A stretch of 30,615 nt of DNA, taken from the IMG/VR virus record IMGVR_UViG_3300024346_000343, positions 1 through 30,615 of that record; one strand, 5' to 3'. The notes under the pieces were generated by a model. The model did no database searches. It was not told the origin of the DNA and saw only the letters and a program-made list of their open reading frames with translations. The position numbers and the translations under genes were made by a program. Shown one piece after another: positions 18,126-23,105 of the stretch; within the stretch, counting starts at the first letter, position 1, and every line of letters starts with the position of its first letter. Source of the stretch: a virus.

Positions 18126-18152
18126 AAAAGCCCCCAATCAAGGGGGCTTTTT
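18126..18152. terminator. Bidirectional terminator between convergent late and replication arms
   Basis: A 10-bp perfect stem (AAAAGCCCCC at 18126-18135 with GGGGGCTTTT at 18142-18151) closes a 6-base loop. The AT ends supply a T tract on both strands, so it can end the vRNAP transcript (plus) and the replication transcript (minus). The stop codon of the minus-strand 58-residue gene lies in its loop. Confidence 0.92.
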
Positions 18153-18314
18153 GTCGTCATCGTCGGGGAAATCAACATCTCGGTACACCCAGATGATGAA
18201 CCCCAACACCAGGACTACTGCTATCGCTGGTGCTGCTGAGATGATGGCCGAGGCAACTGCCCCGACCAGCACTACAACAAGGAACCCTCGTAGCAGGATT
18301 CCTTGCAGCGACAT
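18138..18314 (-). CDS. Small two-helix membrane protein at the convergence point
   Basis: This 58-residue gene is easily missed because of its size. It starts MSLQGILLRGF. Two hydrophobic helices are visible, about residues 6-24 and 28-44, split by a short SAAPA turn. An acidic, then basic, soluble tail follows (RDVDFPDDDDKKPP). The ATG shares one base with the stop of the upstream 142-residue gene (TGATG), a classic translational-coupling arrangement and the main reason to believe it. The TGA lies in the loop of the junction terminator. A helical hairpin with a charged tail would suit a holin-like, antiholin-like or host-membrane-modifying protein, but nothing in the sequence decides this. 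I know no named family for it. Confidence 0.75.
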   Translation of the reverse strand: MSLQGILLRGFLVVVLVGAVASAIISAAPAIAVVLVLGFIIWVYRDVDFPDDDDKKPP

Positions 18315-18742
18315 CAGTTCTGAGGCTTGCTGAGGCCCGAGAACAGGGACTTACGAGGGGCTTTTTCGGTAGTAGCTGCGCTTTCAGCTTCGTCCTGAAT
18401 AGGTTCCTGCCCTTCAGCTTCGCTGCCCTGTTCTCCTACCTGCTCGGCATCGTCAGCTTCCGCTTCGGCTACCGATTCAGCAACAGGCTCAGGCTCGGCT
18501 TTTGCCGAGGTGGCAGTAGTTTTCACCGATTCCGGTTTAGCCGCGATTTCACCAGAGGTACGGCTACCGCGAGTAGCTTTCGGCTTTTGCGGAACGATGT
18601 CGATGATGGCAGTGGTGCCTTCTTCGCCACGGGTGGCCTTGAGCTGGATCTCGATCTCCATGCCATCCTTCACCGACATGATGTCGTTGATGTAGTTCTT
18701 CAGAGCCTGTTCGATCTCAGACTGGATCAGGGTGATTTGCAT
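18314..18742 (-). CDS. Small protein with folded N-terminal domain, acidic linker and SSB-like C-terminal tail
   Basis: This protein has 142 residues. Residues 1-52 form a compact predicted alpha/beta domain (QSEIEQALKNYI helix, then EIEIQLKATRGEEGTTAIID strands) that I recognise as a recurring phage protein of unknown function. Residues 55-128 are a low-complexity Ala/Glu/Ser/Pro linker with strong negative charge. The tail, APRKSLFSGLSKPQN, repeats the APRKSLF string found at the very end of the SSB three genes upstream in this operon. A GAGGA site lies 6 bases before the ATG, overlapping the resolvase stop region. The gene is coupled to the 58-residue membrane gene. Possible role: an accessory of the replication or recombination complex that docks through the shared tail; this is inference. 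Confidence 0.75.
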   Translation of the reverse strand: MQITLIQSEIEQALKNYINDIMSVKDGMEIEIQLKATRGEEGTTAIIDIVPQKPKATRGSRTSGEIAAKPESVKTTATSAKAEPEPVAESVAEAEADDAEQVGEQGSEAEGQEPIQDEAESAATTEKAPRKSLFSGLSKPQN

Positions 18743-18751
18743 TGCATTTCC

Positions 18752-19324
18752 TCAGCGCAGAATGCGCAGTAAATTCTGAAATATGGGGGTGGACACCCCC
18801 GCATGTATTGCTGCTAGGGCATCGGCAACGTGTTCTGCTTCGTTCATCAGGTCTCCCTTTTTGAACTTGGCACCATTCTTGGCATGGCGAGGCCATTCGA
18901 CTGTGGGGTAGAACTCAACCCCGGCGTCGATCATCTGTTGTTTGGTGGCGTTCTTGTTGCCTGTGAACGCCAGCTTCACTTCAGTTGCTGTGACCTCGAT
19001 GATCTGGATACCCTCGGCACGAAGCGTACCGAGGATGCCACAGACCACACCATAGGCTTTCATGCCACTGGCATTTTGGGAGCCAACTGGAACTTCTACG
19101 AAGATGGCTTTGCAGCGACGACCAACTTCAAGTGCCTTTCTGGCCAGCTCCTCGCAACGGCGGAGATCATCCGAGTTGGTTCGCACTTGTTTGTGCTTGC
19201 CTTTGTCGGTGGAGACAACCTCCAGCCGTACACCGTTGAGATACCCCGTCTCCAGGTCTAATTGACCTTCAGCAATCCCCCAGTTGGTAAGGCTGGGGTC
19301 GAAGCCTGCGACGGGGATCAGCAT
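18752..19324 (-). CDS. RuvC-like Holliday-junction resolvase (RNase H fold)
   Basis: This 190-residue protein has the layout of RuvC-type resolvases. It opens with the strand and first catalytic acid in AGFDPSLTNWG (D9), the second in IFVEVPVGSQ (E77), and the C-terminal acidic cluster in NEAEHVADALAA (E164, D168), followed by a short tail. The middle segment (RAEGIQIIEVTATEVKLAF) matches the strand-helix after the E site in RuvC-like proteins. It would cut branched DNA made during replication and recombination before packaging. It lies 5 bases downstream of the ssb stop and 9 bases upstream of the next start, within the recombination block with the RecA-like ATPase and SSB. Length is close to bacterial RuvC (about 170). 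Confidence 0.85.
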   Translation of the reverse strand: MLIPVAGFDPSLTNWGIAEGQLDLETGYLNGVRLEVVSTDKGKHKQVRTNSDDLRRCEELARKALEVGRRCKAIFVEVPVGSQNASGMKAYGVVCGILGTLRAEGIQIIEVTATEVKLAFTGNKNATKQQMIDAGVEFYPTVEWPRHAKNGAKFKKGDLMNEAEHVADALAAIHAGVSTPIFQNLLRILR

Positions 19325-19329
19325 GGCTT

Positions 19330-20082
19330 TTACTTACCGAACAGCGACTTGCGTGGAGCACTGCCGGCTGCCGGTGCAGCAGCAGAAGTGCCAGCAGATT
19401 TCGGAGCACCAGCAGTACCGGCTTGACCGTCCTTGATAGTACGCTTATCGCGGATGTTGCCCTTGTTGCGTTCCAGCCAGGAGTCCCAGAACTTGGCCGA
19501 TTCGGCACCTTCACGGGCTTCAACCACGGTCATGCGGGTTTCGGTGTGGAAGACCTTATCGGTGGCGTTCAGCTCACGAGTTTCGGCAGTCGGCACGTAT
19601 TCTTCACCGACTTTCTCGCTCTTGTTCTCCAGCACCTTGGCAATGCCGAGGCTGACTTCCAGACCCAACGCTTCGACCAGCATCGGAACGGCCTTGGGCA
19701 GTTCTTTCTTGGCCTCGCTGTCGTACAGCTTGATGGTCTTTTCTTCGGTTTCTTGCTCGGCCAGGGGTTTGCCGGTAGTGACGAGGCAGAGGTCGTCTAC
19801 CAGGGTGAAGCCCGGCAGCGGAACCTTCTTGGTCTTGTCGTCTTTGTTGAGGAAGAAGTTCTCGCCCTTCTTGTTGGTGATCCAGAAGGTCTCACGGTAT
19901 TCGCTACCGTCAGCCAGCGAGAGGATCAGGGACACCGATTGAGCACCGCCAGGCGATTTACCGGCGTACAGGGCTTTGATCTTGCCGGTGTAAATGTCGG
20001 TTTCTTTCGGCTGGTAGCCACCACCGAGACGATCCTGGGTTTGTTCCAGACCGTCGGATTTCAGATTGCCAAACAGGCTCAT
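19330..20082 (-). CDS. ssb: Single-stranded DNA-binding protein, N4 gp45-like
   Basis: This 250-residue protein follows the RecA-like ATPase gene and precedes the resolvase, the place of N4 gp45 (about 265 residues). Residues 25-110 are beta-rich and aromatic (DIYTGKIKALYAG, EYRETFWITNKKGENFF), as expected for an OB-type fold. Residues 120-215 are charged and mostly helical. A Gly/Ala/Pro/Ser linker (about 218-242) leads to the end APRKSLFGK. Unlike bacterial SSB the extreme C terminus is basic, not acidic. From memory, N4 SSB also activates host sigma-70 polymerase at late promoters through residues near its C terminus, so this tail may do both jobs. The SSB name rests on synteny and on domain layout, not on a specific motif. 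Confidence 0.8.
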   Translation of the reverse strand: MSLFGNLKSDGLEQTQDRLGGGYQPKETDIYTGKIKALYAGKSPGGAQSVSLILSLADGSEYRETFWITNKKGENFFLNKDDKTKKVPLPGFTLVDDLCLVTTGKPLAEQETEEKTIKLYDSEAKKELPKAVPMLVEALGLEVSLGIAKVLENKSEKVGEEYVPTAETRELNATDKVFHTETRMTVVEAREGAESAKFWDSWLERNKGNIRDKRTIKDGQAGTAGAPKSAGTSAAAPAAGSAPRKSLFGK

Positions 20083-20110: not shown

Positions 20111-20136
20111 GGGAGAAAACAGCTACTTAGTAGCTG
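20111..20136 (-). terminator. Hairpin with stop codon as loop, between ATPase and ssb
   Basis: A 7-bp perfect stem (CAGCTAC at 20120-20126, GTAGCTG at 20130-20136) has a 3-base loop that is exactly the TAA stop of the ATPase gene. On the minus strand it is followed by TTTTCTCC, so it can act as a weak terminator or as a pause site setting ssb level apart from the upstream genes. Confidence 0.55.
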
Positions 20137-20897
20137 CCATAGAACTCGGTGAGGTGATCCAGCAGAACCTGGACATCGTTGTCGATGTAGGTCTCAGCTT
20201 TCTCAAACATTCCCATCGGGGAACGGATACGTTCACCAGTCGTACCTTTGGTGATGCGGGTCTGGAAGACGTGCTTGTAGCCAAGCTCACGCTCTTCTTC
20301 CGTGATAACCAGCATCTTGCTGCCGTACTTCTCCAATTCCTTGACAGGAATCTTCTTAGCCGCGACAACAGTGGTGAAGTAGGCTTCTACCCCTTGGTTC
20401 TTCAGGGCACCCTTGATAGGCACAGCCGTCTTCATTTCCTGGTTCTTCTCGTCAAGCTCATCCTTGACGTGAGCGATGATGATCACAGGTTTGCCGAAAG
20501 CGGCCACCTTCTGCTGCATCACCGTCTTGAAGAACTGCTGATACGCAGACCAGCCAGCCATTGTGTTGGCTGAACCAATGACGTACAGACTTTCGAACAT
20601 GTCCATCAGGAAGGTCATCGAGTCGATGATGATGCCATCAACTTGATCCTTGTTTGCGATGCACTCGTCCATGAAGGCGATTACATCCATAGGATCAGTG
20701 ATGTTGATCCGATTGAACTTGTTCTTGAACGGTAGTCGCTTACCAGATTCAGTGTTGAGATAAACCCAACGCTCCTGATTGCGGATATTCCGCAGACTTG
20801 CCGACTTACCCTGAGTGGAGTAGCCCACAATCAGCACAAGCTGATCGAGACTACCCTCCAACTGGGATGGCGATTCTTGCTCTTCGGTTTCGCTCAT
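20127..20897 (-). CDS. RecA-like (Sak4-type) ATPase, N4 gp44-like
   Basis: This protein has 256 residues. The start ATG is set by a GGAGG site in the 60-base gap from the primase gene. A Walker A motif GYSTQGKS is at about residues 29-36, and a Walker B strand GIIIDSMT at about 88-95. A further conserved strand GKPVIIIAHVKDEL (about 136-149) ends in the polar residue typical of RecA-fold sensors. The rest contains strands and a helical C terminus. The size and single RecA fold match the phage Sak4-type ATPases that assist strand annealing with SSB, and the gene is directly followed by ssb. Other possibilities are a packaging-unrelated AAA protein or a helicase loader; Sak4-like is my best call. 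Confidence 0.8.
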   Translation of the reverse strand: MSETEEQESPSQLEGSLDQLVLIVGYSTQGKSASLRNIRNQERWVYLNTESGKRLPFKNKFNRINITDPMDVIAFMDECIANKDQVDGIIIDSMTFLMDMFESLYVIGSANTMAGWSAYQQFFKTVMQQKVAAFGKPVIIIAHVKDELDEKNQEMKTAVPIKGALKNQGVEAYFTTVVAAKKIPVKELEKYGSKMLVITEEERELGYKHVFQTRITKGTTGERIRSPMGMFEKAETYIDNDVQVLLDHLTEFYGSY

Positions 20898-20957: not shown

Positions 20958-23105
20958 TTATGCACGGGAGTAGCGTTTGGAGAGTGTCACGAAGATGGTG
21001 TTGTCGATCTCCTCTTCATCCAGAGGCGTGTTCAGCTTCTGATTGAAGGCATGCACCTGTTTACCAACGGACATGAGATCCATGCCGCTATCCACCAGGG
21101 CCAGTGCGTACTTGATCATCTGGTTGTTACGGTTGCCAGAAGCAATGCGTTGAGCGAACCAGCGTTCCAGATTGTCCAGCGATTCCACGGCTTGAAAGCC
21201 CTGCTTGAACTGCTCGTTCTTGCTGGTCTTCGGGATAAAGCCCAACACGTCCAGCAACTCACCTTCCATGTTGTAGTGGCATGCACCGTTAAAGCATTCC
21301 CACTTCTTGGCTCGCTGATTGGCAGACTCATCCGTTTTGAACGGAAGCCATGCCATCACCATGTTCATGAACTCCTTGTACTCACCGGAATCCAATTCCA
21401 GGTAGTAGTTCATGGGGATGACCAGACGGAAACGGTTCTCTTCATCAGAGTGACGTTTCGTCGTGTACGTCATGAACTTGTATTCCTTCATGAGTTCATG
21501 GACGGTATTCAGAGCAATGCCCCCGTCAACGTCAATGACGATCATGTTGAAGCCGACGAACACATTTTCTTCTGCACGGTGCCCACCTTTGAAGTGGTGG
21601 TTGGCCCAGTGCATACCGTCGGTTTGAGTCAGCACATGGAGTTGGTCAAACGGCACCTTCTCACACATGTAGTTGTAGGCCCAGTGGTCGCTGTAGCTGA
21701 TGACCATCTCGTCCAGATTGGTTTCCTTGAGGGTTTCACCCTTGAAGAACTCAATACCGTCAGTGAAGGTCTTCTTGATGATGATGTGCTTTTTGTAGCC
21801 CCAGGCGGTGGCCAGGGTCATCAACTCATTACGTGCTGCGTTGCCCGACTTGTAGAACGGTAGGGCTTCCAGCAGATCAGCATGGGTCACTTCGGTGCCC
21901 ACATCAGCGATGTACTTGGCCAGTTTCACATAGGTCTTTTCCCGGTTCAGGATCGACTGGAAAGCTGCACCAGACTCTTCCACCAGCAAGATGGCTTGTT
22001 TGAGGTGATCCATCTCCACTTCGATGCTTTCATCCACGAAGGCAAAGGCACCAGCCAGTTTGAGCGCACGGAAGTAGCGGTGGCTGATTTCAGCCTTGCG
22101 GATCTCCTCGTGATCTGCCATTTGGTCGGCAGCTTTTTCGCACTCGATCTTGTAGGTCAACAGAGCGATGCCAACGTCATCCTCTACCTGCATCCGCCAG
22201 CCGTACATGCTGGCATCGGCCAGACGGTGGAACTTGGTGGCCCATTTGTCGATCACAGCACTGTTGGAAGGCTGCGTCAGATTGGCGTAAATCTCCTCCG
22301 GTGTCTTGGTGTTGTGGGCCTTACGACTGTGCTGGCCGATACCGAACAGGCAACGACGAGCGTAGCCAGTGTCCAGCATGTCGTAGAACTGGTCTTCAGT
22401 CTGGCCACCGTCCAGCAGCTTGCTCGGAGTACCGAACAGCAGCATGTTGGTGGGCGTCTTTCCGTCCAGCTCTTCACCACGGGTGTTCTCAGCAGTGTTT
22501 TTGGTGAGCTTCTGCTTCACCAAACCCTGGTCGTACAGCTCAAGGAACAGAGTCAACACGTCAGCCGAACCCATCAGGTTGCTGCCGATTTCGTCAATCT
22601 GCAGGTTGATGGCACCACAGTTGCCCATCATGAGCTTGTGGCGAAGCTGTTTGACTGCAGGCGGGGTGCCTGAGTCGAAGGTGAATGGAATTGCACCAGC
22701 ACGTTTGAACTCGCCTTCGGCTTTCTCAAACTCTTCTTGCTGGTCAGTGCCATTGCGAGCAGCACGCTCATTGGCGATTTCCCACAGATGCTTTTCAGCA
22801 ATGATGGGGAAGGTGTCTTCCATGAAGCGCTTTTTGAAGCCCTTCAGGAACTCAGTTTCCACGATGTTGACTGAGTGACCTTTGCCGAAGCCAGAGGTGG
22901 CCAGAGCAAGTGCGTAGATGTTGACCGGAATTTCGCCCCGGTCTTTGGTGACGATGGTGGCACGCATGGAGCTAGCCATTTTGGCCAAAAAGTAGGCCAT
23001 TTCCACCCGGAAGAATCCACGGTCGGTGTTCTGCGTTTTATTGCAGAGCACTTCCACAATTTCCTCGATGGCCGGGTGATGCGAAATCCCAGTCAAGTCG
23101 ATCAT
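20958..23105 (-). CDS. DNA primase-helicase-like protein, N4 gp43-like
   Basis: This protein has 715 residues, about the size remembered for N4 gp43 primase. The N-terminal half is an ATPase of the DUF3987/SF3-like kind: Walker A-like ATSGFGKGHS (69-78), Walker B LQIDEIG with D171-E172, then a PTNMLLFGTPSKLL strand and an arginine-rich GYARRCLFG segment (248-255). The C-terminal half shows an archaeo-eukaryotic primase pattern: MIVIDVDGG with D525 and D527, TTKRHSDEENRFRLVIP with H552 and R558, and KKWECFNGA near 600-608. A helical PriCT-like tail closes it. It shares ATGA with the upstream nuclease stop, so the two are coupled. It would make primers at the phage fork. The ATPase-first, primase-second order is unusual. 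Confidence 0.82.
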   Translation of the reverse strand: MIDLTGISHHPAIEEIVEVLCNKTQNTDRGFFRVEMAYFLAKMASSMRATIVTKDRGEIPVNIYALALATSGFGKGHSVNIVETEFLKGFKKRFMEDTFPIIAEKHLWEIANERAARNGTDQQEEFEKAEGEFKRAGAIPFTFDSGTPPAVKQLRHKLMMGNCGAINLQIDEIGSNLMGSADVLTLFLELYDQGLVKQKLTKNTAENTRGEELDGKTPTNMLLFGTPSKLLDGGQTEDQFYDMLDTGYARRCLFGIGQHSRKAHNTKTPEEIYANLTQPSNSAVIDKWATKFHRLADASMYGWRMQVEDDVGIALLTYKIECEKAADQMADHEEIRKAEISHRYFRALKLAGAFAFVDESIEVEMDHLKQAILLVEESGAAFQSILNREKTYVKLAKYIADVGTEVTHADLLEALPFYKSGNAARNELMTLATAWGYKKHIIIKKTFTDGIEFFKGETLKETNLDEMVISYSDHWAYNYMCEKVPFDQLHVLTQTDGMHWANHHFKGGHRAEENVFVGFNMIVIDVDGGIALNTVHELMKEYKFMTYTTKRHSDEENRFRLVIPMNYYLELDSGEYKEFMNMVMAWLPFKTDESANQRAKKWECFNGACHYNMEGELLDVLGFIPKTSKNEQFKQGFQAVESLDNLERWFAQRIASGNRNNQMIKYALALVDSGMDLMSVGKQVHAFNQKLNTPLDEEEIDNTIFVTLSKRYSRA

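Follow-up and report, generated by a model that had tools for sequence, protein, structure and literature searches.

A co-varying C-terminal tail shared by the SSB and the resolvase-associated gp47-family protein of N4-like phages

Why would two unlike proteins of one phage end in the same short peptide? The question is raised by a stretch of viral DNA of 30,615 nucleotides (IMG/VR record IMGVR_UViG_3300024346_000343, positions 1 to 30,615), referred to here as the window, which is a piece of an N4-like (Schitoviridae) genome. The virion RNA polymerase gene on its plus strand meets a replication module on the minus strand, in which the genes follow the N4 order of helicase, polymerase, exonuclease, primase, Sak4, SSB, RuvC-like resolvase, gp47-like protein and small membrane protein (Table 1). 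Within this module the SSB and a protein of 142 residues both carry the sequence APRKSLF at the C terminus.

The first carrier is homologous to the N4 SSB over its full length, and its core is predicted to be an OB-fold (AF2 pLDDT 88.9), for which the best Foldseek match is the ssDNA-binding protein PrgE (E 9e-4, Z 7.3), followed by SSBs, all with moderate scores. The second is assigned to the N4 gp47 family (PHROG 18842/7641) by its homologous N-terminal domain, residues 1-51 giving 62.7% with N4 gp47 in tblastn, and by its position after the gp46 homologue. Comparison of the SSB and gp47 profiles with solved structures by sequence gave no match.

Table 1. Features of the window that bear on the shared tail
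Feature	Position	Strand	Identification
Virion RNA polymerase, 3,813 residues	6679-18120	+	
Small two-helix membrane protein, after gp47	18138-18314	-	
gp47-family protein, 142 aa; ~50-aa N-terminal alpha-beta domain, acidic linker, C-terminal tail	18314-18742	-	PHROG 18842, E 8.8e-31; N4 gp47 homologue
gp47-family C-terminal tail, APRKSLFSGLSKPQN	18317-18361	-	
APRKSLF in gp47-family protein	18341-18361	-	
RuvC-like Holliday-junction resolvase	18752-19324	-	PHROG 159, E 1.6e-41; N4 gp46 homologue
SSB, 250 aa; OB-fold core, disordered linker, C-terminal tail	19330-20082	-	PHROG 743, residues 1-250, E 5.5e-80; N4 gp45 homologue
SSB C-terminal tail, APRKSLFGK	19333-19359	-	
APRKSLF in SSB	19339-19359	-	
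Sak4-like RecA-family annealase, directly upstream of SSB	20127-20897	-	PHROG 124, E 5.5e-45; AAA_24
Primase	20958-23105	-	

The shared tail in the window and its relatives

The SSB ends in GSAPRKSLFGK and the gp47-family protein in EKAPRKSLFSGLSKPQN, as the original prediction had described. A degenerate pattern of the tail matches only these two proteins in the whole record, and the common 7-mer is unique among the last 30 residues of the 18 window proteins, the next best being four residues. None of 20,000 shuffles that keep composition reached seven identical residues (maximum six). The two carriers were also said to be otherwise unlike, and BLASTP outside the tail indeed finds no significant similarity (E 0.44); their genes are separated by that of the RuvC-like resolvase. 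The further claim that both tails follow Ala/Pro-rich disordered linkers holds in part. Disorder is supported by AF2 models, where the Ala/Pro/Gly linker of the SSB and the linker of one gp47 homologue both have pLDDT of ~47-60, whereas the gp47 linker is acidic in composition (Glu/Ala/Pro) and not simply Ala/Pro-rich. Unlike the tip of bacterial SSB C termini (SSB-Ct), the window tails are basic and have no terminal Phe; some relatives come near such a tip (DDPF).

Loci were drawn from IMG/VR and INPHARED using SSB and primase baits, the latter being independent of the tail, and removal of duplicates left 151 loci in which both the SSB and the gp47 homologue are complete. An [SDN]-[LIM]-F tail is present on nearly every SSB and every gp47 homologue across ~150 Schitoviridae lineages. 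The consensus is A-P-[RK]-K-S-L-F-G-K-K for the SSB and P-[RK]-[KR]-S-L-F-[AG]-[GN]-L-x-[KR]-P-x-N for gp47, with the Phe found in 107 of 107 gp47 tails. Within the last 30 residues, S[LIM]F occurs in 127/142 SSBs and 121/144 gp47 homologues, as against 2 of ~960 members of nine other module families. Elsewhere the motif lies near the C terminus in only 92 of 23,139 other ORFs, and the recurrent plausible cases among these 92 are gp47 homologues missed by the HMM. A search over ~160 lineages for any that bear the tail on just one of the two proteins gave no case that held up: apparent absences of tail or gp47 trace to the end of a contig, to gp47 homologues that had been missed or to the frameshift in the N4 record, and some seeming gaps proved to contain a gp47-like protein whose tail matches that of the SSB (SSB EEVDSLFG with gp47 GEEENLFG; DNLFM with INLFA). 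Both tails are found on essentially every locus long enough, which is the co-conservation in homologues that had been proposed as a check. Several gp47 linkers carry extra copies of the motif (phiA41, P184, RG-2014, V13, Ab2712), and the copy in RG-2014, RKSLFAPK, is almost identical to the SSB tail of the same phage, RKSLFPSK. Literature searches turned up no account of a gp47 tail.

N4 itself is an apparent counter-example, which a frameshift in gp47 explains. Annotated N4 gp47 has no tail, but the same DNA translated in a different frame gives AKEPVQAKPSLFAGLKR. A closer inspection of NC_008720.1 / EF056009.1 at 31678-32115 (L003, L178) revealed that one A is missing from a run of five relative to close phages; this deletion of 1 base shifts the frame of the annotated C terminus, so that the SLF tail, in frame in OLB145 and AlfredRasser, is hidden. 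The two N4 records are EF056009 and its RefSeq copy, and match lengths fit an intact gp47 frame in all but one other close record, BEU44 being matched in part. The deletion is either a sequencing error or a real mutation, and the N4 reference record conceals a key part of gp47.

Co-variation of the two tails

Tail charge of the SSB and that of gp47 are strongly correlated (Spearman 0.80, n = 148 pairs), with a value of 0.86 over 42 clusters at 50% SSB identity (permutation p < 2e-4). Both tails shift together from K-S-L-F-G-K-K to S-L-F-D-D and on to D-D-P-F, as can be seen in the SSB/gp47 pairs of Salmonella phage SP-076 (PTKSLFAK / PTKSLFARN), Vibrio phage D470 (KKSLFKK / RKLLFPKKK), Litunavirus (ASLFS / GSLFS), a roseophage (SLFDD / SSIFDAE), a Pectobacterium phage (SDLFL / LDLFS) and Klebsiella phage P184 (DDPFTM / DDPFANFD). 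The number of residues after the Phe also co-varies (rho 0.58). With SSB-body distance controlled, the partial Mantel correlation of the SSB tail is 0.45 with the gp47 tail (p 0.001) and 0.00 with the gp47 linker just before it, and this failure to track the linker led us to reject shared composition as the cause of the likeness. Against the C termini of other families the SSB tail gives -0.37 to 0.48 where n is at least 40, the exonuclease being highest at 0.48. Co-variation among close relatives is weak, with 15 concordant and 5 discordant sister pairs (p 0.04, r 0.27); a weak signal would be expected where individual charges drift and the match concerns the overall type alone.

Two other origins of the likeness, gene conversion and a recent duplication, were considered and rejected. 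Codons of the shared tail residues are identical in 52% against 47% expected, and comparison of the DNA of the two tails shows no long repeat. As the codon likeness is no greater than chance, the likeness of the tails is kept by selection at the protein level. The shared tail is a real, family-wide and co-evolving feature, and the original proposal of a short linear motif for a common partner gains strong support from this co-variation together with the fruitless search for one-sided tails.

gp47 and the Holliday-junction resolvases

Gene order and gene fusion both connect gp47 to resolvases. The gene directly before it encodes the RuvC-like resolvase; in other loci it follows a RusA-like gene or is itself fused to RusA, the fusion occurring in 21 loci that comprise Rhizobium, roseobacter, Vibrio, Delftia and Pseudomonas phages and many metagenomic contigs; the window's own gp47 is without a RusA domain. 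An AF2 model of one fusion has a confident RusA fold in its N-terminal half (Foldseek E 3e-5; VIA Z 10.7, rmsd 2.8 over 109 residues), a separate alpha-beta gp47 domain, a disordered linker and a tail in which pLDDT comes back up to ~79. The fusions also match PHROG RusA families, and a structure search with the fusion returned no match covering the gp47 N-terminal domain. The tail persists whether the resolvase is RuvC or RusA, which makes the resolvase an unlikely receptor of the tail.

Some variation surrounds this gene pair. In Cbunavirus and Efbeekayvirus phages, a gene with a Mu Gam-like end-protection annotation is inserted between SSB and RuvC (L182, 11625-11963; L184, 10770-11093). 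The RuvC-like resolvase of Agrobacterium phage OLIVR1 (L197, 10233-10864) is annotated as two ORFs of 145 and 54 aa, jointly of the usual length, and is therefore split or frameshifted. N4 has an unannotated equivalent of the window's small membrane protein at ~32125-32290, and similar short membrane ORFs occupy the same place after gp47 in many relatives.

Possible partners of the tail

We give a probability of about 0.6 to the reading that the S-L-F tail is a docking peptide on two proteins of one phage, both of which use the same pocket on a phage-encoded recombination or replication component, most likely Sak4. The SSB would display many copies of the tail on single-stranded DNA, while the gp47-family protein would bear the same peptide on a flexible acidic linker on behalf of a Holliday-junction resolvase (RuvC-like and adjoining, or RusA-like and fused). 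With both tails binding one pocket, probably on the Sak4 annealase, the resolvase could take over, or compete for, the joint-molecule machinery recruited by SSB-coated DNA. We infer here a single partner for both tails, its encoding by the phage, its identity as Sak4 and the order of events. A replisome docking tail, the second suggestion of the original prediction, comes closer to the evidence than its first, with a slant toward recombination, as gp47 belongs with a Holliday-junction resolvase.

Sak4 is the leading but unproven candidate receptor. In every annotated locus that was read, its gene sits immediately or almost immediately upstream of the SSB gene. In phage HK620, binding of Sak4 to SSB-coated ssDNA depends on the final six residues of the cognate SSB (PMC5928155). 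In a search for columns with charge complementary to the tail, none of Sak4, exonuclease, polymerase and RuvC rose above pseudo-traits. In the primase, the charge of residues ~490-515 (window numbering) anticorrelates with tail charge beyond pseudo-traits; this weak cluster withstood the pseudo-trait control (0 of ~107 on the clustered score) but looks confounded with deep clades. The segment is possibly a receptor surface, or possibly clade structure, and is kept as a lead.

Host RNA polymerase was the first partner suggested, on the ground that N4 SSB needs residues near its C terminus to activate it. This is correct: S260, K264 and K265 of N4SSB form the activating region, and the protein contacts the C terminus of beta prime (PMC2784036; PMC4496689). 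In N4, then, the known partners of the SSB tail include at least one host protein, which counts against a purely phage-encoded receptor. N4 SSB has 265 residues and ends in KSLFGKK, S260 being the Ser of the S-L-F core, and this Ser is kept in 96/105 SSB and 90/107 gp47 tails. If the polymerase were the common partner, the SSB tail would activate late transcription through beta prime and gp47 would share or antagonise that contact. However, tail charge flips within one host genus although beta prime is conserved, as between Klebsiella phages KP8 (KKSLFGKK) and P184 (DDPFTM) and between P. aeruginosa phages ZC08 (RKSMFKKD) and LUZ7 (SSLFGD). Such opposite tails suggest that the general partner is probably phage-encoded. 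Lysines at the K264/K265 positions are present in ~40% of SSBs and almost never in gp47; in the window, the SSB retains the Ser and, of the two Lys, the first alone, and gp47 has the Ser alone at matching positions. Moreover, gp47 is linked to a resolvase and not to transcription genes. We consider the polymerase unlikely as the common partner, and the tail charges and unconserved lysines speak against competing for or sharing its contact as a general role of gp47.

A pocket on the SSB itself is, in our judgment, a similarly improbable site. There the tail would serve self-association or autoinhibition, and gp47 would imitate the SSB terminal peptide and so bring the resolvase to SSB-coated DNA. 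The N terminus of the SSB, M-S-L-F-G-N-L in many members, is like the gp47 tail S-L-F-[AG]-[GN]-L and has a pLDDT of 78 against 59 for the C tail; the likeness is loose in divergent members, though, a basic tail cannot mimic ssDNA in a basic OB groove, and charge columns of the SSB body do not strongly track the tail. The SSB N terminus (window 20062-20082, minus strand; many basic-tail phages) is a possible third copy of the motif. The sliding-clamp consensus QL[SD]LF has the same [SD]LF core, and one Pectobacterium phage SSB ends in QSDLFL, which might suggest that the tails bind the host clamp (DnaN). This is very unlikely: the defining first-position Gln is found in 2/105 SSB and 0/107 gp47 tails, with Arg or Lys there instead (Arg in the window), and co-varying tails are not what a conserved host receptor would predict. 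Least probable of all, and hardly credible to us, is that there is no common partner and that two low-complexity C termini are alike by composition or local gene conversion. Both linkers are rich in Ala and Pro, as this would have it, but the shuffles, the codon test, the rarity of the motif in other ORFs and the zero correlation with the adjacent gp47 linker contradict it.

The docking reading has parallels in known systems. The C-terminal tip of bacterial SSB, DDDIPF, is a hub for SSB-interacting proteins. The SSB tail of phage HK620 is NDYPPF, with Sak4 as partner (PMC5928155). As in these, the SSB here has a disordered linker followed by a short peptide with a key Phe, which would recruit recombination proteins, and the Sak4 gene neighbours the SSB gene; in contrast, the tip here is mostly basic (R-K-S-L-F-G-K) with an internal Phe, and a second, unrelated protein bears the same peptide. 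In phage T7, the acidic C-terminal tail of the SSB gp2.5 docks on T7 DNA polymerase and is interchangeable with that of gp4. The gp4 helicase-primase tail, also acidic, docks on the same polymerase (PMC12593628; PMC5997990). Here too two phage replication proteins have similar C-terminal tails, and a single phage enzyme as the dock, which is known in T7, would fit the co-variation. The T7 tails are acidic and their second carrier is a helicase, whereas the tails here are mostly basic (basic in the window) and the second carrier is resolvase-associated. With the N4SSB activating region the tail shares residues and protein family; gp47 was not known as a second carrier, and the lysines are not generally conserved. 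On the best reading, the tail would work like the SSB-Ct hub and the T7 tails while belonging to neither by sequence.

A wider interpretation, which we hold as tentative, is a family-wide N4-like docking code. A phage-encoded hub would read the co-evolving S-L-F tail on the SSB and on the resolvase adaptor gp47, and so order ssDNA coating and annealing ahead of Holliday-junction resolution; the SSB tail of N4-like coliphages would later have been co-opted for host RNA polymerase, which would tie late transcription to recombination-dependent replication. The residues famous for transcription activation by N4SSB seem to belong to an older docking tail that a conserved, uncharacterised protein also carries. 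Two questions become testable, namely what partners the N4SSB tail in phages without the lysines, and how annealing and resolution are ordered in phages that encode a resolvase of their own. gp47, whose function is not annotated in PHROGs, gains a concrete hypothesis. A second recurrent motif was also seen in gp47 linkers, in which acidic residues are followed by PPF[ETD]PD; it is present in ~22 of 108 representatives (L039, L042, L053, L254, L267, L279 and others) and recalls SSB-Ct tips.
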